Source: Mesorhizobium sp. B2-1-8
GTDB lineage: Bacteria > Pseudomonadota > Alphaproteobacteria > Rhizobiales > Rhizobiaceae
Assembly (NCBI RefSeq): GCF_006442545.2
Contig: NZ_CP083952.1
Coordinates: 5,929,501-5,993,500, forward strand
Length of the DNA: 64,000 nucleotides
Reading direction: 5' to 3'
Position numbers and translations under genes: made by a program. Below the pieces are notes generated by a model, which saw only the letters and a list, made by a program, of their open reading frames with translations, ran no database searches and had not been told where the DNA came from. Every line of letters starts with the position of its first letter. Position 1 is the stretch's first letter. This document shows positions 1 through 13,851 of this stretch, piece by piece.

Positions 1-105
1 ATCAGTTCCTCGGCGGCCCTGCATGGTCATGCGCCCGGTTTCCATCACATAGCCTCGGTCCGCGATGCCCAACGCGGCGTACGCGTTCTGGTCTACCAGA
101 AGCAC
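1..105 (-). pseudogene. livF: LivF C-terminal remnant (branched-chain amino acid ABC ATPase)
   Basis: Reading the minus strand from 105 to 1 gives 35 codons beginning [18 protein letters not shown] and continuing to YVMETGRM. This is the segment after Walker B (the LLVEQN...A..YVLETGR stretch) of LivF, the ATPase of branched-chain amino acid importers. After MQG the expected AEEL appears only after a one-base shift, so the frame is damaged. At 105-107 the similarity stops abruptly and istB sequence begins on the other strand. The missing upstream part seems to lie at 9617-9685. The gene continues beyond the left window edge, so the full extent is unknown. It is a remnant, not a working gene. 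Confidence 0.7.
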
Positions 106-106
106 A

Positions 107-541
107 CGCAACGCCGCGCTCATCGGCGGCACAGGAACCGGCAAGTCGCATCTGGCAATCGCCATTGCCCGCGCCCTGATCCGCAACGGCTCGCGCGGTC
201 GCTTCTTCAACGTCGTCGATCTCGTCAACCGGCTCGAGACCGAGCACCGCGGCGGCAAGCAGGGCCGCATTGCCGATCATCTTACTCGGCTCGACTTCGT
301 CGTCTTCGATGAACTCGGCTATCTGCCCTTCGCCCAGGCCGGCGGACAATTGCTTTTCCACCTGATCAGCAGACTCTATGAACGGACCTCGATCATCGTC
401 ACCACCAACCTGGCGTTCGGCGAATGGCCCGCCGTCTTCGGCGACGCCAAGATGACGACAGCGCTGCTCGACCGTCTCACCCATCATTGCGAGATCATCG
501 AGACCGGAAACGAATCCTGGCGCTTCAAGAACCGCGCCTGA
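107..541 (+). pseudogene. istB: IstB 3' half (IS21-family helper ATPase), cut at its 5' end
   Basis: About 144 codons from [20 protein letters not shown] to the stop at 541 encode the AAA+ half of IstB, the ATP-binding helper of IS21 transposition. Walker A is GGTGTGKS, Walker B is VVFDELGY, and the sensor region [10 protein letters not shown] and C-terminal SWRF are present. The N-terminal domain (about 97 residues) is absent here. The start-like ATG at 65 lies in antisense livF sequence and is spurious. The missing half is found at 9686-9980 on the opposite strand, so this is one gene split by an inversion rather than a separate copy. Confidence 0.85.
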
Positions 542-630
542 TCACCTGCCAAGCGTCATCCGCCTTCGCCCGGGCTGCGCAACCCTGACCAGCTCCGCCC
601 GGGCGAACGCTGACCGCCGCGCATTACATA

Positions 631-685
631 AGGGGGGGTCAAAATTGGACGCCGATCGGGGGTCAGTTTTGGAAGCCGTTTGACA
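631..685 (+). repeat. IS21 terminal repeat pair, istB end
   Basis: Two related blocks lie in tandem. The inner one, GGGGTCAAAATTGGACGCC, is around 636-653. The outer one is about 659-685 and ends CCGTTTGACA. Both match the blocks at 11534-11596 at the istA end. Multiple terminal repeats of this kind bind IstA in IS21 elements. Confidence 0.7.
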
Positions 686-852
686 GTGAGGCGTTGCTCG
701 TCGAGGGGGAGAGCGTCTACAGGCTTCCGTCAGCCTCAACGTCAGCGTAGCTGAACAGTTCGCCAGTTCGATCGTCGCCCCCGCGCACTCGTCACCTCCG
801 AATCCCTTCCGAACCAGTGAGTCACCGCTGCGGTCCGGTGGCGAGTGCCGTT

Positions 853-2121
853 TCAAAAGTCTGCTAGACTGTATTCGATATCCGCCTTTCCCGTGCAGAT
901 GGATTTCAGATTACGGACAAACAAGGAAATGTTCCCGAAATAATTCGGGTACATTTCAATAAGTTTTTCAAATTTATCTACTTCGACCAAGGCGGCCGTT
1001 ACATCAATACCTCTTATCTCGATCTTTTTCTCTATCTCCTCCAACGTCCGCACGCCTAACATAATAGTTCTGTATGGTTCAATTGTTACGTTATGATCTT
1101 TGCTATATTGGAGCAAATAGTATCGAAATTTTTCCGTCTTCTGGACGACGTTCTCTGAGTAGAGGGGAAGATCCTTGATGTCGTCTAATATGCTTGTCGC
1201 ACCTATACGCGTGTTGATATCCCGCAATTCCCGCACTCGGTCATCGTGATCCGGAACACCGATAGGAACGGGACACTGCTCAACGTACGCGAATTCCGCC
1301 GACATAAGCTGGAAAAGGCGTAGCCAATCCTGCTCGCCGTTTCCGTGCTTCAAGTCCTGGCGCCGGAATAGCCCGACGGCCTCAACTGCAGTTGCCCATG
1401 AGTGCTGAAGTGTGGTCCGAACTTGCAATTCGATGCGTCGTCCCTCGAAAGCCTCAGTGTCGGCAGCTCTGGGTCGGTACTGGAAAACAATATGGTGACT
1501 TCGATAGCCGTCCGGCTTCGGCTCATCGATATAGTCAAATTCCCGAGAGTGTATCTCATGGGGGAACCTGTCTCGCATCGATGCGAGAAGCATGCGAACA
1601 CTTTTGATGTCGGGCATGACTGCTCGGCAGCCGCCGATATCGTTCATGGTATCCAAATTGGTGGTGGACTCTCGAAGCTTCCGACGAATGGATGCCATGC
1701 GCTTCGGACGCGATGCCATGTCGCCCTTCAACCGCAGGGCTCTCATGTGGTGACCGACAGAGAACCGAACGCTCCGCATCGGCAGAAAGTGCGAGTCGCG
1801 CCAGCTATTGGCGATTGAGAAGATTTCGAGTGCGTCCACATACTGGCCGGCAGTGATGTCTCGTCCGAACTGCATAGGTTTTGCCAGCCGATCGCCTGCC
1901 TTGCGAACGGCTTTCATGCTGTATTCAAGGCGCGGGTACTCAGTCATTGGACCCATATAATCAAGGTAGGCCGCCTCATTCTGGACTGGCGGGACTACCG
2001 CAAGGGAATCGATCGCATGGATCGTATCTCTTTGTGTACGCGAAGTCCGCTCAGAGCGGCTGGGATCGAAGCCGGAAGCCCTCGACAGTGCCTCCTCGAG
2101 TTGCGCTGGCGCTAACCTCAC
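853..2121 (-). CDS. RelA/SpoT nucleotidyltransferase-domain protein (orphan, possible toxSAS)
   Basis: The protein (422 residues from 2121; an alternative start at 1947 gives MTEYPRLEYS) carries a ppGpp-synthetase fold: NDIGGCRAVM, PKPDGYRSHHIVFQ and RIELQVRTTLQHSWA correspond to the G-loop/acceptor and catalytic segments of RelA/SpoT synthetases. No HD hydrolase, TGS or ACT domain is present, so it is not the housekeeping Rsh. A C-terminal region of about 170 residues has no recognised domain. The DNA is visibly richer in A+T than its neighbours, suggesting transfer. The gene is alone between an IS21 end and the divergent mloK1, with no evident antitoxin. It could make (p)ppGpp-like alarmones, or act as a toxic synthetase that pyrophosphorylates tRNA or makes ppApp; the sequence does not decide. 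Confidence 0.8.
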   Translation of the reverse strand: MRLAPAQLEEALSRASGFDPSRSERTSRTQRDTIHAIDSLAVVPPVQNEAAYLDYMGPMTEYPRLEYSMKAVRKAGDRLAKPMQFGRDITAGQYVDALEIFSIANSWRDSHFLPMRSVRFSVGHHMRALRLKGDMASRPKRMASIRRKLRESTTNLDTMNDIGGCRAVMPDIKSVRMLLASMRDRFPHEIHSREFDYIDEPKPDGYRSHHIVFQYRPRAADTEAFEGRRIELQVRTTLQHSWATAVEAVGLFRRQDLKHGNGEQDWLRLFQLMSAEFAYVEQCPVPIGVPDHDDRVRELRDINTRIGATSILDDIKDLPLYSENVVQKTEKFRYYLLQYSKDHNVTIEPYRTIMLGVRTLEEIEKKIEIRGIDVTAALVEVDKFEKLIEMYPNYFGNISLFVRNLKSICTGKADIEYSLADF

Positions 2122-2287
2122 CGACTCCTGCAGCTCAAGCGCATGCGACGTCGGACCATGCGTCTGTTCACTTTCCCGGCCATCTGAGTTTCACCGTGTG
2201 ATGAACATCGCAGCGAAAGTAAGCACCTTTGCGCTTGCCTTGAAGGCATCCTATTCTGGAGGAATAGCATCCGCTCGTGGGCACAGA

Positions 2288-3355
2288 ATGTCGGTACTGC
2301 CTTTCCTGAGAATTTACGCGCCGCTCAACGCGGTGCTGGCTGCGCCTGGGCTGCTGGCGGTGGCTGCGCTCACGATGCCGGACATGTCCGGACGAAGCAG
2401 GCTGGCTCTGACTGCCGTGCTCACGGTCATTTGGGGCGCCTATCTTCTGCAGATGGCCGAGACGTTGTTCAAGCGCTGGGCGGGAGACCTTCGGGACAGG
2501 ACGCCGGCAATCGCCGTTGATATGCTCGCGGTTTTGGTTCCACTCGCCGCATTTCTGCTCGTCGGCACGCCCGACCGGAGCCTCTACTGTGCTGTCTGGC
2601 TGCTGAAACCGCTGCGCGACTCGACTTTCTTCCCGGTACTGGGCAGGGTGCTGGCCAACGAAGCGCGCAACCTGATCGGCGTCACCACGCTCTTCGGCGT
2701 CGTTCTGTTCGGTGTCGCGCTCGCGGCCTATGTCATCGAGCGCGACATCCAACCGGAAAAGTTCGGCAGCATCCCCCAGGCAATGTGGTGGGCGGTGGTC
2801 ACGCTGTCCACCACCGGTTACGGCGACGCCATTCCGCAAAGTTTCGCCGGCCGCCTCCTTGCCGGGGCGGTCATGATGTGTGGCATCGGCGTCTTCGCGC
2901 TCTGGGCCGGTATTCTTGCCTCCGGCTTCTATCAAGAAATCCGCCGCGAGGATTTCGTCCGCAATTGGCAATTGGTCGCCGCCGTGCCGTTGTTTCAGAA
3001 GCTCGGCCCGGCCACGCTGGTCGAGATCGTGCGCGCGTTGAGACCTCGTAATTTGCCGCCGGGCGCCGTGATCTGCCGCAGGGGCGAGACTGGGGATCGG
3101 ATGTTCTTCGTTGTGGAGGGCCGTGTCAGCGTCGCGACGCCACACCCGGTGGAGCTTGGCCCTGGCGCCTTTTTCGGCGAGATGGCGCTGATCAGCGGCG
3201 AACCGCGCTCGGCGACCGTCAGCGCCGCAACGGCGGTCTCACTCCTGTCGCTGCACGCGGCGGATTTCCAGATGCTGTGCAGCAGCAGCCCGGAAATCGC
3301 GGAAATCATCCGCAAGACCGCGCGCGAACGGCACGGCGCGGCACCGACGGCTTGA
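2288..3355 (+). CDS. mloK1: Cyclic-nucleotide-gated potassium channel MloK1
   Basis: The 355-residue protein starting MSVLPFLRIYAP matches the structurally characterised M. loti channel MlotiK1 (mll3241) over its full length with scattered substitutions. Order of parts: six inner-membrane helices (about 1-210), a pore with the K+ selectivity filter TTGYGD near residue 175, a short C-linker, then a cyclic-nucleotide-binding domain (about 220-350) with GPGAFFGEMALISGEPRSATV, the phosphate-binding cassette including its arginine. Binding of cAMP opens the pore in this family. The start at 2288 is chosen because it gives exactly the MloK1 N-terminus and length; in-frame codons upstream to 2198 are not part of the known protein. 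The gene is divergent from the RelA/SpoT gene. Its presence strongly marks the genus. Confidence 0.97.
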   Translation: MSVLPFLRIYAPLNAVLAAPGLLAVAALTMPDMSGRSRLALTAVLTVIWGAYLLQMAETLFKRWAGDLRDRTPAIAVDMLAVLVPLAAFLLVGTPDRSLYCAVWLLKPLRDSTFFPVLGRVLANEARNLIGVTTLFGVVLFGVALAAYVIERDIQPEKFGSIPQAMWWAVVTLSTTGYGDAIPQSFAGRLLAGAVMMCGIGVFALWAGILASGFYQEIRREDFVRNWQLVAAVPLFQKLGPATLVEIVRALRPRNLPPGAVICRRGETGDRMFFVVEGRVSVATPHPVELGPGAFFGEMALISGEPRSATVSAATAVSLLSLHAADFQMLCSSSPEIAEIIRKTARERHGAAPTA

Positions 3356-3890
3356 CCGTACCAGGCGTTCGCCAGGAGGAGGACGCGGATCCGGAAACTG
3401 ACGCTATGTTCCTTGATGTCATTCCAGGTCAAACCGGGCGCTTCGCCGAGGCGGCAGCCGAGCGCCGGCACAATCAACAAGGCCGCGTCTTTCTATGGAA
3501 AAGTTTGAGCGCGCCGAACATCGGCCTTTCCTCGGATGCGGCGAATCCGCGGCAATTCCCTGGCAGACGACTCCAGGCCTTGCCATGATTCCGTCGGCCG
3601 ATCGCCGGATTCGGCCGGAAACAGGCGGTTGCGGCGGGCCCGATAGTTAACGAGAGCTTTCTGAGTGAGGCCAAATCGTGACGTTTCTGCAACACAGGTC
3701 GGGGATAGCAGCCGAACTGTCCTTTCGCCGGTACGATCGTTGTTGAACGCCGCCGGCTCATGGGTAATGTCGAATTCGAAGGAGCGGCGCGGTGCGCATC
3801 TTTTTCGGTAGTGGGGATGGGGCAGGGAACGCTGTCCTTCAGCAAAGAATACCCAGACCCGTTTTTTAACTTTTGACTGGAGGTCAGAAA
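3356..3890. pseudogene. Intergenic region with possible tyrosine-recombinase scrap and porin leader
   Basis: About 535 bp without an intact gene. On the minus strand, 3480 to about 3360 reads LIVPALGCRLGEAPGLTWND, which resembles the R-box (G.RLGEAL.LTW.DI) of phage-type tyrosine recombinases; the frame then runs into antisense mloK1 sequence. This would be a short fossil of an integrase; the match is brief and not certain. The part from about 3600 to 3890 is the leader of the porin gene and ends in the ribosome-binding site GGAGG at 3879-3883. No clear -35/-10 pair was identified. Confidence 0.35.
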
Positions 3891-5057
3891 ATGAACATCA
3901 AGAGCCTTCTCCTCGGCTCCGCTGCGGCTCTGCTCGCAGTTTCCGGTGCGCGCGCCGCCGACGCCGTCGTCGTCGCCGAGCCGGAACCCGCTGAATACGT
4001 CAAGATCTGCGACGTCTACGGCGCTGGCTACTTCTACATCCCCGGCACCGAAACCTGCCTGCGCATCGGTGGCTATATCCGTTACGACATCAGCGGTGGC
4101 GACGTCGGTTCGTTCGATGGTGCGAAGTCCCGTGACGTGAAGGACGGTGACGTACAGGAGACCTGGCGCAAGAAGGCCCGCTTCACGCTGAAGACCTGGA
4201 CCGGCCAGGAAACCGAGCTCGGCACGTTGAAGACCTACACCGAGACCCGCTTCAACTTCCAAAATCGCAACGGCTATGCCTCCTACTATGGCAATCCTGC
4301 GGGCAACACGGGCGCGTCGCTGAACTTCGCCTGGATCCAGCTCGGCGGCCTGCGCGTCGGTAAGGACGAATCGGCCTTCAACACGTTCATCGGCTACGCC
4401 GGCAACGTGATCCAGGATACGCTTGTTCCTTACGGCGACTTCGACACCAACGTCGTGCAGTACTACTTCGACGCCGGCAACGGCTTCTCGGCCGTGGTTT
4501 CGCTCGAAGAAGGTTCGGGCAAAGGCACTCCTGGTGCCTACGGCGTGGGCACGATCGACAGCTACGTTCCGCATGTCGTCGGTGGCGTGAAGTGGACGCA
4601 GGGTTGGGGCGCCATCACCGGTGTCGTCGCTTATGACAGCAACTACGAAGAAGTGGCCGGCAAGGTTCGCTTGGACGTGAATGTCTCCAGCGCACTGTCG
4701 CTGTGGATCATGGGCGGCTATGGTTCTGACAACCACCTCAACGATACCAGCTATGCGCTCCCGGCTGGCGGCCGCGGCTTCTACAAGCAGTGGGGCGGCA
4801 ACTGGGCAGTTTGGGGCGGTGGCACCTACAAGTTCAACGAGAAGACCTCGTTCAACGCCCAGGCGGGCTATGACGACTGGAAGAACCTCAGTCTCGTTGC
4901 AAACGTTGCCTACGACATCGTTCCCGGCTTCACAGTCACGGCCGAAGTCGACTACCTGCACGCAGGTCATTTCGGCGATGTGGGCTTCTCGAACTGGACG
5001 AATGCCGACAAGAAGAACAGCGTCGGCGGTATGCTCCGCTTCCAGCGCTCCTTCTAA
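3891..5057 (+). CDS. Outer-membrane porin, RopA/Omp2 type
   Basis: The 388-residue protein begins MNIKSLLLGSAAALLAVSGA with a Sec signal peptide cut after ARA, giving a mature N-terminus AADAVVVAEPEP. It then has the rhizobial porin signature YVKICDVYGAGYFYIPGTET with the two conserved cysteines (KICD and TCLR), followed by many alternating beta-strands and a C-terminal aromatic residue (RFQRSF) needed for outer-membrane assembly. It forms a general diffusion pore as in the Brucella Omp2b / Rhizobium RopA family. The start at 3891 follows GGAGG at 8 bp; the upstream ATG at 3873 precedes that site and is rejected. A strong terminator follows at 5081, so it is monocistronic. Confidence 0.95.
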   Translation: MNIKSLLLGSAAALLAVSGARAADAVVVAEPEPAEYVKICDVYGAGYFYIPGTETCLRIGGYIRYDISGGDVGSFDGAKSRDVKDGDVQETWRKKARFTLKTWTGQETELGTLKTYTETRFNFQNRNGYASYYGNPAGNTGASLNFAWIQLGGLRVGKDESAFNTFIGYAGNVIQDTLVPYGDFDTNVVQYYFDAGNGFSAVVSLEEGSGKGTPGAYGVGTIDSYVPHVVGGVKWTQGWGAITGVVAYDSNYEEVAGKVRLDVNVSSALSLWIMGGYGSDNHLNDTSYALPAGGRGFYKQWGGNWAVWGGGTYKFNEKTSFNAQAGYDDWKNLSLVANVAYDIVPGFTVTAEVDYLHAGHFGDVGFSNWTNADKKNSVGGMLRFQRSF

Positions 5058-5080
5058 CAGGCGCTGCCTGATTGAAATCG

Positions 5081-5111
5081 AAAACCCGGCGGGCAACCGC
5101 CGGGTTTTTTT
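5081..5111 (+). terminator. Rho-independent terminator of the porin gene
   Basis: An 8-bp GC stem (CCCGGCGG / CCGCCGGG) closes a GCAA tetraloop, is extended by A/T pairing, and is followed by six to seven T. It lies 24 bp after the porin stop. The following 280 bp up to 5390 hold no gene that I can support. Confidence 0.93.
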
Positions 5112-5390
5112 ATGCCGTCTGTATGGAACTTCGGACAGCCGATGGCATGGCCGCCCGCCTGCTGCCACGCTTGCAGACGTGGAAGAGCAATCCTCGCAGC
5201 GAAAGGAAAGCAGGAAGCAAAACTGCTTGGCAAGCGACGCTCGAAACGGCGGGAGACTCTGTGGCCAGGATACGCAGGCAGGACAGAGCGGGTGTGAAAG
5301 AACTCAGCCTGAGCAAACCCTGGCGGCGGAAAGCGTACGCCTGCCGGATAGGATGCAACCTAAGATGCGCGCAGCATCAGGCACTACCGC

Positions 5391-7067
5391 TCAAACCTCA
5401 GCCAGATCGCCCAAGGCTTCGATCAACGGCTGAATCTCGCTTTCGTAATTCTTCCAACGCTTGACGGACGAATTATAGATCGGCTGGCGGACCTGCCAAT
5501 TGCTGTAGGTATTTACGGAGCCGCCCCTGTCAAAAAAGCGCAGGCAGGCATCGTCCCACGGCAATCCGAGATAATCTATGAGCCGGCGCGACTGCTCCTC
5601 CTGATTTTCGATCAACGTCTCGTAGCGATTTTCGAAAATGCGACCCGGGAAAACCTTATCCCAATGCCGCATCAAGCGATCATACTCCCTGTAGTAAAGC
5701 CCCAGCGTCTCAAGATCGGCACTGTAGCTGTGGGCTTTATTGAACTGCAGGACGAAACAGGAGATGCAATTGTCGATGGCGTCGCGACGACAATGAATGA
5801 TACGCGCTTTTGGGAAAAGGAGACCAACCAGGCCGATCATCTCGAAATTGTGAGGCATCTTGTCAACAATTCGCAGCGAGTCCGGAGCCCGCTCGCGCAG
5901 ATAAGCAAGGTGCTCTTCGGCCAAAGTCCTGGTCAGATCGGGAGTAATCATCGCGATCGATTGACCGAGGCTCGCGTTGGAACCGTCTACGACACCGAGT
6001 CCACTGGCTATTCGCCTAAGTTTGCTGAGCTCGCCGGCACCATGAACATCGGGGTGACTGGCACAGATCTGCTCTGTCAACGTCGTGCCCGAGCGAGGCA
6101 TGCCGACGACGAATACAGGCGTCTCCGAGGGATTGCCGTACGCGGCTCTTGAAGCGACCAGTTCCGGCGTGAAGGTTTCGATCATGACATCGATCCAGCG
6201 ACGATAAGATTGCAGATCGAATGTATGGCCCCCGGCTTGATTCCCCTTCTTGAAGTGATCCATCGCCTCCTTATAGCGACGGAGGTCGTTGAGAACCTTT
6301 CCAGCGGCGTGATGGAGCGCTGCCGCTCCCCCCGGCCCATGGCCCGGATCTTGAAGCTCCCTCAGGATTGCCCCGAGTTCTGGCGGCTCTTCAGCGAATT
6401 TGCGCGTGCGTACAAGCGCATTGTGGGCAGCCGGTACCGCGATGCGCCGTTCTATTGCCTCTTTCAGATGAACCGCGGCTTCGTCCATACGGCCGAGGCT
6501 TGCGAGCGCGCGGGGCAGCCCCAACCGGGCTACGGGATGATCTCGGTCGACCCTGAGCGCCTTCTCAAAGAGCGGCAGCGCCATTTCCCCCTTGTCAAAC
6601 GCATTGTATGCATCGCCCAAGGCGCAAAGCGCTTCCACCAGATCCGGCTTCAAGTCCAGGGCGTACTGAAGGTGACTGATCGCCGGCGTAAATTCGCTGA
6701 CCTTCAAATAGGTCTCGCCGAGGCTAAGATGGTAGTAGGGGTTCTGCGGATCCTCTGCCACCGCCCGAGCGAAATACCGCAGTGACTTTTCGTTATCGAA
6801 ACCGAGCCCGAGCGTTCCCAGGATATACAGGGCCAGCGGATGGTTTGACGTGCGAGCCAAGACCCTGTGGCACAGTTCCTCAGCCTCGGACAGACGTTCG
6901 GCCTGCTGCAATTCGAGCGCCTGCCGTAAAAGCAAGTCGTCGGCGTGGCTGCGGTGGGGGCCTGCCTTAGGCTGCGCTTTGAGTGGCGCAGCCTTCGGTG
7001 ATGCCGCCTTCGGCGAGGGTTGGGTCTTCAGGTGCTTTGCCCATGCGGGCGGCAATCGGTTGCTCAT
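5391..7067 (-). CDS. TPR-containing sulfotransferase
   Basis: 558 residues. A Pro/Lys/Ala-rich low-complexity tail (about 12-38) precedes several tetratricopeptide repeats (about 45-280; for example PQNPYYHLSLGETYLKVSEF). A sulfotransferase domain follows: VFVVGMPRSGTTLTEQI near 318-334 is the P-loop-like 5'-phosphosulfate loop for PAPS, and HCRRDAIDNCISCF near 425-440 is the 3'-phosphate motif with its Arg and Ser. The enzyme would transfer sulfate from PAPS to an unknown acceptor, the TPR part probably binding a partner or substrate. No signal peptide is seen, so it is cytoplasmic. The gene stands alone. Similar rhizobial proteins are annotated as tetratricopeptide repeat-containing sulfotransferases; no specific substrate can be named. 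Confidence 0.88.
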   Translation of the reverse strand: MSNRLPPAWAKHLKTQPSPKAASPKAAPLKAQPKAGPHRSHADDLLLRQALELQQAERLSEAEELCHRVLARTSNHPLALYILGTLGLGFDNEKSLRYFARAVAEDPQNPYYHLSLGETYLKVSEFTPAISHLQYALDLKPDLVEALCALGDAYNAFDKGEMALPLFEKALRVDRDHPVARLGLPRALASLGRMDEAAVHLKEAIERRIAVPAAHNALVRTRKFAEEPPELGAILRELQDPGHGPGGAAALHHAAGKVLNDLRRYKEAMDHFKKGNQAGGHTFDLQSYRRWIDVMIETFTPELVASRAAYGNPSETPVFVVGMPRSGTTLTEQICASHPDVHGAGELSKLRRIASGLGVVDGSNASLGQSIAMITPDLTRTLAEEHLAYLRERAPDSLRIVDKMPHNFEMIGLVGLLFPKARIIHCRRDAIDNCISCFVLQFNKAHSYSADLETLGLYYREYDRLMRHWDKVFPGRIFENRYETLIENQEEQSRRLIDYLGLPWDDACLRFFDRGGSVNTYSNWQVRQPIYNSSVKRWKNYESEIQPLIEALGDLAEV

Positions 7068-7216
7068 CCTGTTTCGCTAGCAAAAGGGGCTTGGAGAATC
7101 CAGCCTCAATAGCCGTTTTGCGCAGAGCGCTGGCGTGGCCCCATCGATTTGCCCATTCTTCCGGATCGAGCCTTATCGGATTTCCGCTCCGGTCGGTCCG
7201 GTGACGGCGCTCTTTC

Positions 7217-9511
7217 CTATTCCGTTGCGCCAGCTTTTTTTCTGCGACGAATGGTGTGCGATTGCGCGGCGGCCATTTGCAACGCGGGTGTGATGTCCAG
7301 CGGCGCATTCTCTGCCCCATGTGGATTCTGTAGCCCCTGGACCTGGACGGTCGGGAATGGGAGTTCGATGCCCTGCTCCTTGAAGACCTGGCGCAGGCGT
7401 ACATAGAATTTGCGTTTCATAGCGAAGGCGCCTCCCGGTCTGGTCGTGGCCTTGACCCTCAATACGATGCCGTACTCGCCGAACTCCTGTACGCCCTGCA
7501 TCTTGATCGGGTCGAGCACCCAGTGTTTGAAATCGGGATCTTCCGCCAGCTCGAGCCCGATCCGCTTGATCAGCTTGCGAGCGAAATCGATATCGGTGTT
7601 ATAGCCGACGGTGATGTTGAATTTGTCGATAACCCAGTCACGGCTCTGGTTCTGGACGGCCCCGAGTTCACCGAAAGGTATGGTGAACAGCGGACCTCGA
7701 TGGTGGCGCAGCTTCACCGAGCGCAGCGAAAAGCTTTCCACGGTACCCTTGTAATTGCCCGAGGAAATATATTCGCCGACGCGAAACGCATCGTCGAGCA
7801 GAAAAAACACGCCCGAAATGATGTCCTTGACGATGGTTTGTGCCCCAAAGCCCACCGCCACGCCGACGACGCCAGCGCCAGCGATCAGCGGGCCGATCTC
7901 GATACCCATTGAGGCGAGCATCATCAGCACCGCCATCACGATGATCGATGCGAGCAGAATGTTCTGGAGGATCGGCAAGAGCGTGTGCAGCCGCGCCTGC
8001 TGCGGATCGAGGATCGGGACCTCTTCGTCGCTGATCACAGGGTGCGGTGTTTCGATGCCCAGCTTTCGTTCGATCAAGGCTTTGATGATCGACCAGCCGA
8101 AATCGGCTGCGAGGGCAATGACCACGACATTGATCAAGCCGCGCAATATGAAGGTCGTCGTCGTATCGCTGTCCCGCATGGATTGCATATTCAGACCCCA
8201 GACACGCGCGAGAAAGTAAGCCGCCGCCAGGATGAAAATCATTCGGATTCCGCGATCGATGACAGCGATCGTCACCGCCGGGATCGTAGGCCGGCCGAGA
8301 TCTTCCGAACCTGGCCGCAGGACGAAATTAACCCCGCGTTGCGTCGTCACGATTGCCAACGGCAGGAAGAATGCGGCGAAGGTAAACCAGAAGTATCCAT
8401 AAAGGCCGGCGATGCGCTGCAGGAACAGGACGACGAAATAAGCCGTCAGTAGCCATGTCGCTTCCGTGTGAACGCTGTGGCGCGCACCGACTCGCTGCGT
8501 TCTTGGCCGGCGCCAAATGGCCAGCACCAAGAGCAGCAGCAGCACGAAATCGGCGCCCAGCGACAGGACCATCATTCCGTCCTGATCGATGCCGAGACCT
8601 GGCAAGAGGATGAACGCGGCGCCGAAGAAGGCGAAGACGCCAACGATCCGGGGTAGCCAATAGGACCAATGGTCAGCCGCTTCGTTGGTGATTGGCAAGG
8701 CACGAACCTCGACGGCGTTCTCGACGTTCATGAAGGAAGGGACGAGCATGGCCATGACGTACATGCGCACACCCCATGTAACGACCGCCGCCATCAGAAA
8801 TGTCAGTACTATCTCGCGGATAAGCATTGGCCAGTCGAACAGCATGAACGCGCCGGCGCTGCCCAGTGCGAACGAGACGATCAGCGTGCTGGAATAAAGC
8901 ATGCGACCACCAATCTTCTTGACTCGCCCAATGGGCGTATCCTTCGGTTGCGCGATAATCCAAAGGCGAAATGGACGGGTCAACTTATACGTTGCCCAAG
9001 TGAGCGCCAGGCCGGCTGCGATGAACACCGCGATCAGCATGATTATTCCGGCCGATCCCTTGCTGGACATATCCTCCATGGTCTTTGCGCGGACGAGCGC
9101 GAACTGACCGGGCAGCAAGGGCAAAGTTTGTATGATTCTTTCGATATGATGCTTGATCCGATCGAGCGTCGAGGATGCCATCGTATTCATCTGGCCTGGT
9201 GCGGCCACGGCGTCGGACGATGCGTCGGCCGGAGAAGCTCCTGCCTTGGCAGGCGCTCCCGTTGACCCGGCGTCCTGATTTCGCTGTTCGGCCACCCAGG
9301 CCTTCACTGATGGATCGTCGAGAAGCTCGAATAGCTGTTTGACCCTTTCAGGCGGGACGGTCGCCGGCGCCTGCGCCTCTGCCTGACCAGCCAACAAGAG
9401 GGCGATCCCAACAATCAGCGCCCTGGCAACCAGGACAAACATCGCGCCCAGGAGACGTTGTGTCGGGCGTGCCAGATACCTGGCTCCCAATCGTCGAATC
9501 ATGAGTGGCAT
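7217..9511 (-). CDS. Large MscS-family mechanosensitive channel
   Basis: 764 residues from the start at 9511, which follows GGAAGG at about 12 bp; upstream codons to 9616 lack a ribosome-binding site. Parts in order: signal peptide (ending AGQAEAQ), a periplasmic segment of about 130 residues, a run of transmembrane helices (about 165-560), then the conserved MscS core GAGVVGVAVGFGAQTIVKDI (pore-lining TM3) followed by SGVFFLLDDAFRVGEYI and the beta/alpha domains ending in FPTVQVQG. It acts in the inner membrane to release solutes on hypo-osmotic shock, and resembles the extended MscS proteins (YbdG/YnaI/MscM-like) rather than short MscS. It lies at the right edge of the inverted block, with the inversion breakpoint about 170 bp upstream. 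Confidence 0.92.
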   Translation of the reverse strand: MPLMIRRLGARYLARPTQRLLGAMFVLVARALIVGIALLLAGQAEAQAPATVPPERVKQLFELLDDPSVKAWVAEQRNQDAGSTGAPAKAGASPADASSDAVAAPGQMNTMASSTLDRIKHHIERIIQTLPLLPGQFALVRAKTMEDMSSKGSAGIIMLIAVFIAAGLALTWATYKLTRPFRLWIIAQPKDTPIGRVKKIGGRMLYSSTLIVSFALGSAGAFMLFDWPMLIREIVLTFLMAAVVTWGVRMYVMAMLVPSFMNVENAVEVRALPITNEAADHWSYWLPRIVGVFAFFGAAFILLPGLGIDQDGMMVLSLGADFVLLLLLVLAIWRRPRTQRVGARHSVHTEATWLLTAYFVVLFLQRIAGLYGYFWFTFAAFFLPLAIVTTQRGVNFVLRPGSEDLGRPTIPAVTIAVIDRGIRMIFILAAAYFLARVWGLNMQSMRDSDTTTTFILRGLINVVVIALAADFGWSIIKALIERKLGIETPHPVISDEEVPILDPQQARLHTLLPILQNILLASIIVMAVLMMLASMGIEIGPLIAGAGVVGVAVGFGAQTIVKDIISGVFFLLDDAFRVGEYISSGNYKGTVESFSLRSVKLRHHRGPLFTIPFGELGAVQNQSRDWVIDKFNITVGYNTDIDFARKLIKRIGLELAEDPDFKHWVLDPIKMQGVQEFGEYGIVLRVKATTRPGGAFAMKRKFYVRLRQVFKEQGIELPFPTVQVQGLQNPHGAENAPLDITPALQMAAAQSHTIRRRKKAGATE

Positions 9512-9616
9512 CGTGCTGTTAGCCTTCCGGTCAAATCGGCAAGCAACGACATCTATGCCCGCCATTGCTCCTACCTTGAAGAAGCCGATGTTGTGGTGCA
9601 AGACGCCATCGTTCAA

Positions 9617-9685
9617 GCTAGACCATTGCGTAGGGTCTGGTCGTGCAAATCATGGATCAGCAATTCGAAGACGCTGGGCGTCACG
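9617..9685 (+). pseudogene. livF: Possible LivF remnant upstream of the inversion breakpoint
   Basis: The last 24 plus-strand bases before 9686 encode NSKTLGVT; joined to VLLVDQNA from 105-1 they give the usual LivF stretch '..[12 protein letters not shown]..'. Further upstream VQIMDQ appears in a shifted frame, also LivF-like. Similarity ends within about 70 bp. The match is short and is supported mainly by the reciprocal join, so it is an inference. Confidence 0.45.
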
Positions 9686-9980
9686 GCTGGTCGGCGACGA
9701 AGGTGCCGTTGGCAAGGTCCCGGACCAGCACCTCGTTGACCGGCGTGCCGTCGAAGTCGAACTCCTCGATGTCCTTGGCCAGCGGCAGCTTGGCGACGGT
9801 GAGCTGGTATTTGATGGAGCGCGCCTGCTTCTCGGCGATCTCGGCCGACAGCAGATCGCCGACGATCCGCGGCGGCTCATGCTGGCGTTTGATGCCCGTC
9901 GCCATGACCTCGTCATAGGCGCCGCGCATGCCGTAGAGCTTCAACGTGCCCATCAAGTCGAGAACCTGAGTGCGTTCCAT
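9686..9980 (-). pseudogene. istB: IstB 5' half (IS21 helper), cut at its 3' end
   Basis: About 98 codons beginning MERTQVLDLMGTLKLYGMRG and ending GTFVADQ encode the N-terminal DNA-binding half of IstB. Coding similarity stops at 9686, where the next expected residues ([14 protein letters not shown]) are found instead at 107 on the opposite strand. The start overlaps the istA stop (TGATG) and follows AGGAGG, the normal translational coupling of IS21 operons. The few codons beyond 9686 are unrelated sequence. Confidence 0.85.
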
Positions 9981-11486
9981 CAGCTTGCCCTCCTGAGGCT
10001 GTCGTATCGGGCGCAGTCGGCCTGCGGCTCGTGTTGCAGGCGAAGAGCGTCCGGAGTGAGGATGGTGACGGCCGGCGCCGGATCGCGCCGGCGCGCCAAG
10101 ATGTTGAGGATGACGGCGGACGAGCAGACGTTCTGGTCGAGCGCTTCCTGGCAGGCGGCCTCCACGGCATCGATGCCGTCGGTCAACGCCGCGGCCAGGA
10201 TCGACACCATCTGCCGATCGCCATCATGCGCCGCCTTCAATCTCCGCGGCACCCGCTCCATTGCCGGTGGCAGAGCCCAGCCCTGGAAGGGTGCACCCGT
10301 TGCGCAGCGCGCCAGGCTTGCGGGCCAGCACCGGAACATAGTGCCAGGGATCATAAACCGTCTCGTTGCGGCCGAAGCAGCGTGCATGCTCGGCGACGAT
10401 CACGCCGTCCTGGCGGATGACGATGCGGTCGGCATAGGCATGGATCTCAACCGGGCGGCCGACTGCGGTCGAGAGCACGGAGTATTTGTTGTTGTCGAAG
10501 CGCACCGTGCAGGTCTTCGACACCGAGGCCGGCACCGCATGGAACCCGTCGAAGGGGCCGCGATATTCGACCAGCTTGCCGCGCTCTTCCTCGAACACGT
10601 TCCAGATCGTTCGTTCCGGCTGTTCGATGTGACGATGCGCCTTGGCGTAGGCGACGCACTTGTCCTGCAGCCAGGCGTTCAGTTCCTCATAGGTCTTGAA
10701 GCGCAGCCTGGGCTTGAAGAAGCGCTCGCGCACCAACCCGACCTGGTTCTCGACCTGACCCTTCTCCCAGCCCGACGCCAGTGTGCTGGCGACCGGCTGC
10801 ACCAGATAATGGCTGCACATCTGCAGGAGGCGGCGATTGTATTGGCGGTCCTTGCCAACAAAGATCGTTTCCACCGCCGTCTTCATGTTGTCGTAGATGC
10901 CGCGCGTGCAGGCGCCGCCGAAGAAGGCAAACGCCCTGTCATGGGCGTCGAACACCATCTCCTGGGTCTCGCGCGGATAGGCCCTGACGAACATCATGCG
11001 GCTGTGGCAGAGCCGGACATGGGCGACCTTCACGGTCACTGTCACGCCGTTGATCAGGACGATCTCATGGCTCCAGTCGAACTGGTAGGCCTCGCCCGGC
11101 GCGAAGAATAGCGGCACATAGGCGTCCGCCGTCGCCGACCCCTGCGCCTTGGCCCAGCTCTTCGCGTATCGGCGGACGGCGTCATAGCCTTCCTCGTAGC
11201 CGAGGCTGCAGAGCTCTTCGTAAATCCGGATCAGTGTCAGTTGCTCGCGCGCCGCCTTGCCACGGTTGCCATTCAAAAACCCGTCAAGCTGATCCTGCCA
11301 CGGACCGATCTTCGGCTTGGGCTGCCGCTCGCGTTCGTAGGAGAACGATGTCTCATCGGACCTGAGTATCTTGCGGACGGTGTTCCGCGACACATGCAGT
11401 TCGCGGCAAATCCGCTTGAGCGACCATCCCTGCACATGGAAGGCGCGCCGAACCCGGGCAATCGTATCCACCGACTTCATCCCCAC
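9980..11486 (-). pseudogene. istA: IstA transposase, frameshifted near its C-terminus
   Basis: Reading from MGMKSVDTIARVRRAFHVQG gives an IS21 transposase: N-terminal HTH, then the DDE catalytic core with Asp in QFDWSHE, Asp in YDNMKTAV and Glu in GQVENQVG. Near 10295 an extra base (sense T in CGCAACGGGTGCACCC) shifts the frame after KPGALRNG. The expected continuation GAPFQGWALPPAMERV runs in the next frame to the stop at 9980-9982. Repaired, the protein is about 501 residues, normal for IstA. As given, the first frame stops at 10224 with a short aberrant tail. All catalytic residues precede the shift, but the C-terminal region is lost. A sequencing indel is possible. Confidence 0.85.
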
Positions 11487-11533
11487 ACCATCCGCTCGCC
11501 ACGACGAGCGGATGGTCGCAAATCAAAGCATCA

Positions 11534-11596
11534 GGGGGGTCAAAATTGGACGCCGATTCCCCGGCTTATGGGGTCAATTTTGCGCGCCGATTCACA
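11534..11596 (-). repeat. IS21 terminal repeat pair, istA end
   Basis: The inner block GGGGTCAAAATTGGACGCC (about 11536-11554) and the outer block GGGGTCAATTTTGCGCGCC (about 11570-11588, running on to TTCACA at 11596) flank the istA promoter region. The inner block is identical, in the same orientation on the plus strand, to the one near 636; in an intact element the two would be inverted, which is direct evidence that one part has been flipped. Confidence 0.75.
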
Positions 11597-11716
11597 CGCA
11601 ATGCGTTCTCAATGACTTTGACATGCTGCGAGGCATCCCGCGCCGCAGGCTCTCGACTGCTAACCACCTGCGAGTTGCGCGGCAGACTTCGTGGGCGCGC
11701 TCTCCGGCGCTGAGCG

Positions 11717-12022
11717 TCAGCGCGATGAAGACCCGCGGTACTTTCTCAGCCTGGTAACCGCCGAGCGTCCGACGGTGATGATACCGCCGCAGTCAATCCG
11801 CACCGTCAACTTGTCGTCTTTGCGATCGATACGGATGATGTCCCCAACAAGAACGACCTTATCTCCAGCGCGGGTTTTCGGTGGCGGGTCAACCGAATAG
11901 GGTGGGTCATACGATGGAATGTTTACTTTGGCACGTCCGCTAGGCAGCATGGTGGTGACCGTACCCGTCAAGGCGACCTCGTCACCGATCTCAAATTCCC
12001 GGGGCACGCTGTGGTCTAGCAT
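11717..12022 (-). CDS. Small hypothetical protein
   Basis: I do not recognise the family. The start at 12022 is chosen because GGAGGAGG stands 2 bp before the ATG; open frame continues upstream to 12121 without a comparable site. The 101-residue product (MLDHSVPREFEIGDEVALTG...) is rich in Val, Ile, Asp and Lys in alternating patterns suggesting two small beta-barrel (KOW- or SH3-like) units, GDEVALTGTV and GDKVVLVGDI, separated by a proline-rich linker. It has no signal peptide or membrane segment. It ends RKYRGSSSR. It lies alone beside the IS21 terminus. Confidence 0.55.
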   Translation of the reverse strand: MLDHSVPREFEIGDEVALTGTVTTMLPSGRAKVNIPSYDPPYSVDPPPKTRAGDKVVLVGDIIRIDRKDDKLTVRIDCGGIITVGRSAVTRLRKYRGSSSR

Positions 12023-12525
12023 AGCCTCCTCCGGCGCCTTCCCAGATATTAATGCCGACAAACTGACTTGGTTGCGTGAAATCGCAAGTCTCTGCGCCGT
12101 CGCCTCCATCGGTCCGAGCACCGTTTCCTAGTGGGCTTCGGGAAGCCCGGGTGGGCATTTCCAGCGCCGCCGATCAATGAAATATTTGATCGCCGGCGAT
12201 CCAGCGACCCTCTCAGGGCTGGCTATCTTGTTGACGGGGTCGATGAACCGCGGCTCGTGACAATTTCTCTAGGGAAACAAAAGGTGATCAGAGACATTCT
12301 CTCCTGCTCAGACAGGGTGGTTCGCCAACCCATACCCTTCGTATGATCTCGTATGATCTGTCGAACCCGATAACGAGGACGACGATTGAGGTTCGACCCC
12401 GCGAGCCGTTGTCCGAACAAGCGACGTGGAGGATGCGAATTGCAAGGTAATTGGGTGCGAAGGCGAATCGCCGATACCGACATTCGCTGGTGGCAGCGAT
12501 TTTGGTGCATCGCCCCCGATTGCTT
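12023..12525. other. Intergenic region, no gene supported
   Basis: About 500 bp. Apart from the leader of the small hypothetical gene, I see no coding pattern, tRNA-like fold or terminator. A short tandem duplication, TCGTATGATC twice at about 12338-12357, is the only local structure. Confidence 0.5.
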
Positions 12526-13587
12526 TCAGTAGCGGTCGGCCTCGATGACTGCGTTGGCAAATTCTCGCGGAGCTTCCTGCGGCAGATTATGTCCGATGCC
12601 GCCGCTGATGACCCTGTGCGAATATCTGCCGGAGAATTTCTTGGCGTAGGAACTGGCGTCCGGATGTGGCGCGCCATTGGCGTCGCCTTCGAGGGTGATG
12701 GTAGGCACGGCAATGACCGGGGCCTGGGCGAGCCGCTGTTCCAGATCATCGTATTTCGGCTCGCCTTCGGCAAGCCCGAGCCGCCAGCGGTAGTTGTGGA
12801 TCACGATACTGACATGGTCCGGATTGTCGAAGGCCGCGGCGCTGCGCTCAAAGGTGGCATCATCGAAATTCCACTTCGGCGAAGCGAGCTGCCAGATAAG
12901 TTTGGCGAAATCGCGCGTGTATTTCTCGTAGCCAGCACGACCGCGGTCCGTGGCGAAGTAATATTGGTACCACCATTGCAGCTCCGCCTTCGGTGGCAGC
13001 GGCAGGATGCCGACTTGCTGATTGCCAATGAGATAGCCGCTCACCGAGACCATCGCCTTGCAACGTTCAGGCCAGAGCGCGGCGACGACGTTCGCTGTCC
13101 GGGCGCCCCAGTCGCAACCGGCTATCGTGGCCCTTTCGATTCCTAGCGCGTCCATCAGGGCGATCGTATCTGTGGCGAGCGCCGACTGCTGGCCGTTGCG
13201 CATCGTCGCGTCCGAATGGAAGCGCGTCGTGCCGTAGCCGCGCACGTAAGGCACAATCACGCGGTGCCCCTTCGAAGCGAGCATGGGCGCGACGTCGGCG
13301 TAGGTGTGAATATCGTAAGGCCAGCCGTGAAGCAGGACGACGGGCGCGATGTCGGCGGGTCCCAGCTCCGCATATCCGATGCTCAGCGCTCCGGCATTGA
13401 CCTGCCTGAGCGAGCCGAATGATCTGTGCGCCGGCTGCGTTGCAGACGCTGTTGCCTGCTTCGCCCAACCGGCTGCCGTTACCGGCACATTCAAGCCAAA
13501 CTCGGTGGCGGCGAACGTCATTGCCGCGGCACCAACAATGCGGCGGCGACTATGGTCGATTTTCTCGTTAGACTTGCTCTTATCCAT
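12526..13587 (-). CDS. Tat-exported alpha/beta hydrolase, epoxide-hydrolase-like
   Basis: 353 residues from MDKSKSNEKIDHS. The N-terminus carries a twin-arginine signal (SRRRIVGAAAMTFAATEFG) ending near AAGWA, so it should be exported folded to the periplasm. The core shows the oxyanion motif HGWPYD, the nucleophile elbow GCDWGAR with Asp rather than Ser, and a late histidine in SGGIGHNLPQE. An Asp nucleophile is typical of epoxide hydrolases and haloalkane dehalogenases; HGWP..IHTY favours the epoxide-hydrolase branch. The start at 13587 is favoured by AGAGG upstream and by placing the Tat motif near the N-terminus. Substrate is unknown. Confidence 0.85.
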   Translation of the reverse strand: MDKSKSNEKIDHSRRRIVGAAAMTFAATEFGLNVPVTAAGWAKQATASATQPAHRSFGSLRQVNAGALSIGYAELGPADIAPVVLLHGWPYDIHTYADVAPMLASKGHRVIVPYVRGYGTTRFHSDATMRNGQQSALATDTIALMDALGIERATIAGCDWGARTANVVAALWPERCKAMVSVSGYLIGNQQVGILPLPPKAELQWWYQYYFATDRGRAGYEKYTRDFAKLIWQLASPKWNFDDATFERSAAAFDNPDHVSIVIHNYRWRLGLAEGEPKYDDLEQRLAQAPVIAVPTITLEGDANGAPHPDASSYAKKFSGRYSHRVISGGIGHNLPQEAPREFANAVIEADRY

Positions 13588-13665
13588 GATGAAGCCTCTG
13601 TGATTGCTATGACCGACAAGCGGAAACGACAACCCGCCGCATCAGCCGACAAGAAAGCGTCACGC

Positions 13666-13851
13666 CTATTTCGACGGCGTCTTCATCGACGCAAGTATTT
13701 GACCCATGCGATTAGGGGGCAGTGCTAGGAGTTCTGATCGAATGTACGGAAGCGTGAGCGCTTCCTCGGCTTCCATCCTCAGAAATTCGGGGCGTAACCC
13801 ATCGCCGCGCTTGGCAGCGATCAGATGTAGCGTCTGCAGAAACGGTAGCAT
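13666..13851 (-). CDS. Small hypothetical protein with strong RBS
   Basis: 61 residues, MLPFLQTLHLIAAKRGDGLR..., not recognised. It is supported by GAAGGAG placed 8 bp before the ATG and by its position in a same-strand run between the GST gene (ends 13925) and the hydrolase (starts 13587). It might be the truncated tail of a larger protein. No signal or membrane segment is evident. Confidence 0.4.
   Translation of the reverse strand: MLPFLQTLHLIAAKRGDGLRPEFLRMEAEEALTLPYIRSELLALPPNRMGQILASMKTPSK

Follow-up and report, generated by a model that had tools for sequence, protein, structure and literature searches.

Evidence for a derived inversion of about 9.6 kb through an IS21 relic and a livF remnant in Mesorhizobium sp. 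B2-1-8

Gene content of the inverted block

The window, which is the complete stretch of 64,000 nucleotides analyzed, corresponds to G000:C1:5929501-5993500, with G000 as the source genome of 6,870,590 bases in two contigs and with a completeness of 99.99%. The block of interest extends from position 106 to position 9685 of the window. These end points came from an earlier inspection of the letters alone, the sequence-only reading, and are uncertain by about 1 base. The left and right ends of the block are named breakpoints A and B in the following.

Five genes are located in this block. They encode a RelA/SpoT-domain protein of 422 aa (positions 853 to 2121, minus strand; PF04607), which is colinear in the relative G133, a cyclic-nucleotide-binding ion channel of 385 aa (2198 to 3355, plus strand; PF00027/PF00520), a Porin_2 protein of 394 aa (3873 to 5057, plus strand; PF02530), a TPR-sulfotransferase of 558 aa (5391 to 7067, minus strand; PF13469), and an MscS-family channel (7217 to 9616, minus strand; PF00924), which has 799 aa according to the mechanical listing of open reading frames. 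All five had been named in the sequence-only reading, and the Pfam profiles agreed with this assignment. Each of these genes is still an open reading frame after the inversion. The listed start of the MscS gene is about 70 bp away from breakpoint B, and the true start may be positioned further inside the block.

An IS21-family element is split between both ends of the block

An istB gene encoding the helper ATPase of an IS21 element had been claimed to be cut into two pieces on opposite strands, and both pieces were found at the respective places with complementary parts of the Pfam profile IstB_IS21 (PF01695). The 3' part, at positions 107 to 541 on the plus strand, covers profile positions 94 to 235 of 238, and the 5' part, at 9686 to 9980 on the minus strand, is contained in a match of profile positions 4 to 91 to the window positions 9681 to 9980 of the same strand. 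The istB side of the element comprises positions 107 to 685 (plus strand) with a terminus at 685 (...TTTGACA), and the istA side comprises positions 9686 to 11596 (minus strand) with a terminus at 11596 (...GATTCACA). Both ends agree with those of the copies in G022, G098, G103, and G152. The breaks are consequently situated within istB, 579 bp and 1911 bp inside the element when counted from its termini.

The other features of an IS21 element are present only in part. TG...CA termini are typical of the IS21 family, and the sequences at 685 and 11596 are of this type and shared with the other copies. An istA-type transposase gene is located upstream of istB in the same gene order as in G022, with a match to PF22483 above the cut-off, while the rve profile reached 30.9 bits and remained below its cut-off of 32.6. 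This istA (10224 to 11486, minus strand) encodes 420 aa and is frameshifted, compared to an open frame of 516 residues in G022. In an alignment of seven copies, the frameshift in the window region 10224 to 10387 was evident against all of them. A target duplication was not found at the two outer flanks of the split element, the best flank match being 3 bp and off register, whereas three of the five related copies that were tested (G022, G103, and G152, not G098 and G165) have a duplication of 8 bp. The element thus shares the istA and istB genes and the TG...CA termini with the IS21 family, and it differs by being split, frameshifted in istA, and devoid of a target duplication. Due to the frameshift and the split by the inversion, it has been damaged twice. 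Judged from its sequence and because the target duplication is missing, an absence that reflects the history of the element, this copy is to be regarded as a degraded relic of the family and not as an intact member.

The second broken gene is a livF remnant

On the opposite side of each breakpoint is sequence related to livF. Positions 1 to 105 (minus strand), left of breakpoint A, align with the loci L016, L069, and L070 of other genomes, in which the alignment continues into the window positions 9684 to 9686. The other part (..SNSKTLGVT) is at 9637 to 9686 on the plus strand, left of breakpoint B. Related sequence extends leftwards beyond the window.

The sequence-only reading had treated livF as a gene that was broken by the flip. 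This did not hold, since in G125 the readable stretch, located next to the MscS gene, is 74 residues long, and its best NCBIfam match, LivF, is restricted to profile positions 168 to 236 of 237 with 60.7 bits in comparison to a cut-off of 441, which makes it a C-terminal fragment of the last 69 profile positions. The part at 1 to 105 is 85% identical over 34 residues to this remnant. Other matches to it in the source genome are in longer open frames with an identity of at most 58%, one of them in a frame of 292 aa, which was read as LivF-like from its sequence. Because the relatives keep only the 3' end of livF, what the inversion split was already a remnant rather than a functional transporter gene. 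The assertion that turning the block back would rebuild two broken genes is hence valid for istB. It is not valid for livF, which had already been a remnant in the relatives, and the neighboring istA is frameshifted in addition.

Related genomes carry the uninverted order at both break sites

The uninverted order, which had been proposed as a check, was present in relatives at both break sites. For 12 out of 13 IS21 loci (11 genomes), window positions 107 and 9686 fall on a single base; these loci were a selection from the better matches in other genomes, not all matches listed, and the exception was L077, in which the two istB parts do not abut. Likewise, the two livF parts are adjacent in L016 (12861/12859), L069 (10069/10069), and L070 (9929/9929). 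When the livF junction of G025 was used as query in 146 genomes of the genus, including the source genome, a continuous match was obtained in G025 itself, G125, and G163, that is, in at least 3 of the 145 other genomes, and these counts are lower bounds with up to 3 candidates scored per genome. In G106 the junction was colinear in two pieces. Many other genomes yielded weaker matches (71 to 79% identity where listed) that started at about query position 354 and were taken for livF paralogues.

The present arrangement, on the other hand, seems to be restricted to one genome. A query across breakpoint B (window 9600 to 9770) matched over its full length only in the source genome among 146 genomes and in 0 of the 145 others, with up to 5 candidates scored per genome, so that the source genome carries the derived state. 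The other matches listed ended within about 10 bases of the breakpoint or were wholly on one side of it. An exact scan of a contig database, which may omit records of the source genome itself, with 18 bases across this junction returned 30 stretches, no title of which named Mesorhizobium, and judging from the titles alone, these were taken as chance matches. From these comparisons, the inverted order seems to be private to the source genome.

Two relatives indicate how much of the region was turned. In G133, positions 864 to 9614 are colinear in three aligned pieces, and about 4.1 kb of unrelated sequence separates them from the upstream flank, which comes next in the uninverted sense. In G152, the flank comes about 0.1 kb behind positions 3987 to 9614. 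The whole block, and not merely its end, was therefore turned round in the source genome. The two junctions are reciprocal, and the sequences that they separate are found next to each other, as two pairs, in relatives without the inversion. Taken together, the sequence comparisons strongly support an inversion of about 9.58 kb that would be derived in the source genome.

Both joins were made with next to no homology

At breakpoint A, position 106 is a single filler base without a counterpart in the IS21 or livF sequences of the relatives, and no base is shared in comparison with livF of G125 and G163 and with the IS21 copies. At breakpoint B, one base, the G at 9686, fits both livF and IS21. 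These single-base details were read against relatives that are about 89 to 94% identical on the livF side and against IS21 copies that are about 84 to 95% identical. Of the shared bases “ACG/CG” that had been suggested for the two joins, the comparison leaves the one at 9686 and none at the other join. Taken together, the joins exceed the pair of uninverted sequences by two bases, and a flip of the block can therefore not leave both frames as they are in the relatives, whichever end points are chosen. The statement that both genes would be joined in frame had to be abandoned accordingly, because one frame is always off.

Repeats that may have mediated a recombination were not apparent. The longest exact inverted match between 500-bp pieces around the breakpoints was 10 bp, and a match of this length or longer occurred in 111 of 300 random control pairs, so that this 500 × 500 bp comparison gave no inverted repeats above chance. 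A search for inverted repeats over positions 1 to 10100 revealed nothing at the breakpoints among the 25 longest of 89 pairs. Long homology is absent from the joins, as in an illegitimate inversion. Recombination between inverted repeats was rejected as an explanation, the searches at the breakpoints having yielded chance level only.

A programmed or reversible inversion of the block with the MscS and relA genes should also be considered, since one end of this gene block is close to the start of the MscS gene. Such a phase switch has next to no probability, given that the end repeats are not above chance, that one break hit a transposon gene and the other a dead remnant, that bases were gained at the joins, and that the inverted junction was found in full length in only 1 of the 146 genomes searched.

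Second copies of the break sites were not found in 74 kb compared. In searches of the whole genome, window positions 1 to 700 retrieved only pieces of the IS terminus among the best 40 of 121 candidates, and positions 9300 to 12200 retrieved no match at the break among the best 4 of 153 candidates. These results bear on the possibility that chimeric joins during assembly had created both junctions in silico. Inverted chimeras that share little homology are known to arise as artefacts of libraries. An artefact would nevertheless be very unlikely here: it would have to account for two separate junctions that are reciprocal, the region 1 to 13000 of the window contains no ambiguous bases, the matches listed contained no further copy of either break site, and the assembly is nearly complete in its two contigs.

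End joining may explain the inversion

The sequence-only reading had left open if the inversion was illegitimate or assisted by a transposase. The first part agrees with the homology of 0 to 1 base and with the lack of inverted repeats above chance. The second part, in which an IS21 end would have moved intramolecularly into livF, could be based on the breakpoint within an IS21 element and on the missing 8-bp target duplication of the split copy, which is present in G022, G103, and G152. Intramolecular transposition would link an IS end to the target, and neither of the two junctions does so; the breakpoints are instead inside istB, with 579 and 1911 bp between them and the ends of the element. 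An involvement of the transposase is thus highly improbable, even less probable than an assembly artefact, and IS21 transposition as the cause was rejected with both breaks being internal to the element. Since the breaks are internal to IS21 and no inverted repeat exceeds chance, neither transposition nor repeat recombination fits.

The source genome contains four matches to Ku and three matches to the LigD polymerase domain above the cut-off, and therewith the genes for non-homologous end joining (NHEJ). A two-break inversion by end joining is the best explanation for the arrangement and a probable one. In the ancestor, an IS21 copy would have been located beside the relA/SpoT end of the ion-channel/porin gene block, and the opposite end of this block would have been at the 3' remnant of livF. 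Two double-strand breaks, one in istB and one in the livF remnant, may have released the 9.6-kb piece, and the ends would have been rejoined with this piece in the reverse orientation. One join may have been formed through the single shared base and the other with a filler base, as could be expected for Ku/LigD-dependent joining by the NHEJ pathway.

The same inversion could have arisen with joins made by replication-based template switching, and an overlap of one base together with one base of filler is compatible with such a process. A balanced inversion would require two coordinated switches, however, and end joining is the simpler route because the Ku and LigD genes are present. Template switching is unlikely for these reasons, even if it is the less improbable one among the alternatives. 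At the level of the sequence, the event is a real, derived, and ordinary illegitimate inversion.

The neighborhood of the MscS gene is variable

The inversion is located in a region of changing gene order. In G001, G017, and G091, the position of the MscS gene with respect to the flank is a different one, and the flank further out is in the opposite orientation in G125, G163, and G106. Across the genus, several orders and orientations of the MscS gene and its flanks were observed (L069, L070, L071, L017, L018, and L102), and the region looks as if it had been rearranged repeatedly. The sequence of G025 beyond the block (L016, positions 1 to 8840) is not adjacent to the block in the source genome.

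A single ancestral site could not be assigned to the relA/SpoT end of the block, and no relative with an IS21 element at the same place was found. An empty target site was searched for in 146 genomes with the queries 600 to 2300 and 11590 to 13700 of the window, and among the matches listed, with the best two candidates per genome, no joined flanks occurred, while pieces of both outer flanks are present in other genomes. The outer flanks of the IS21 element have a history of their own. As the order is variable, a target duplication is missing, and no joined outer flanks were found among the matches listed, further rearrangements have occurred at this site.

Two additional observations concern these flanks. 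A segment of about 135 bp that separates the RelA/SpoT gene from the IS21 end (window 733 to 868) is 86 to 92% identical to sequences in at least 8 genomes of the genus and recurs in others with lower identity or in shorter form, and the RelA/SpoT gene was not beside these copies among the matches listed. On the other side, window positions 11649 to 12122 are 89% identical to G000:C1:5102225-5102686, which is about 300 bases away from a Ku match at 5101432 to 5101920.

Comparison with other bacteria and meaning of the inversion

Spontaneous inversions between short inverted repeats have been described in Salmonella LT2, and the part of that study considered here gives 22 confirmed junctions with a microhomology of more than 10 bp, the confirmed rearrangements having repeats where they end (PMC3411829). 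Both cases are inversions without long repeats that were detected from their junctions, and they differ in the extent of the homology, which is 0 to 1 bp at the locus described here. In Rhizobium etli, a minority of the breaks introduced by I-SceI underwent repair by NHEJ, with deletions of 1 to 4 nt, according to the portion of the publication used (PMC10932983). Broken ends were joined there, too, without long homology and with changes of a few bases. Those events were repairs at a single site with deletions, and the word “inversion” does not appear in the main text of that paper. As far as these parts of the two publications allow a comparison, the near-zero homology fits better to the NHEJ class of R. 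etli than to the Salmonella class.

The main consequence of the inversion is the split of the IS21 element, on top of its frameshifted istA. Moreover, the MscS gene on the minus strand, with its listed start at about 9616, is now directly downstream of istA and the 5' part of istB on the same strand. Transcription coming from the IS element could drive expression of the MscS channel in this arrangement, and the inversion could perhaps have been kept by selection, a reading that is very doubtful as a whole. A promoter scan of positions 9500 to 11700 did not reveal a sigma-70-like promoter, and the idea of an altered MscS expression is therefore not supported.

The inversion appears to be a real but ordinary genome accident. 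It adds to the tally of such events and does not by itself raise a new question. Its value is that of a clean natural case, a balanced inversion whose joins show hardly any homology, in a bacterium with Ku and LigD, for which both uninverted junctions are available in relatives.
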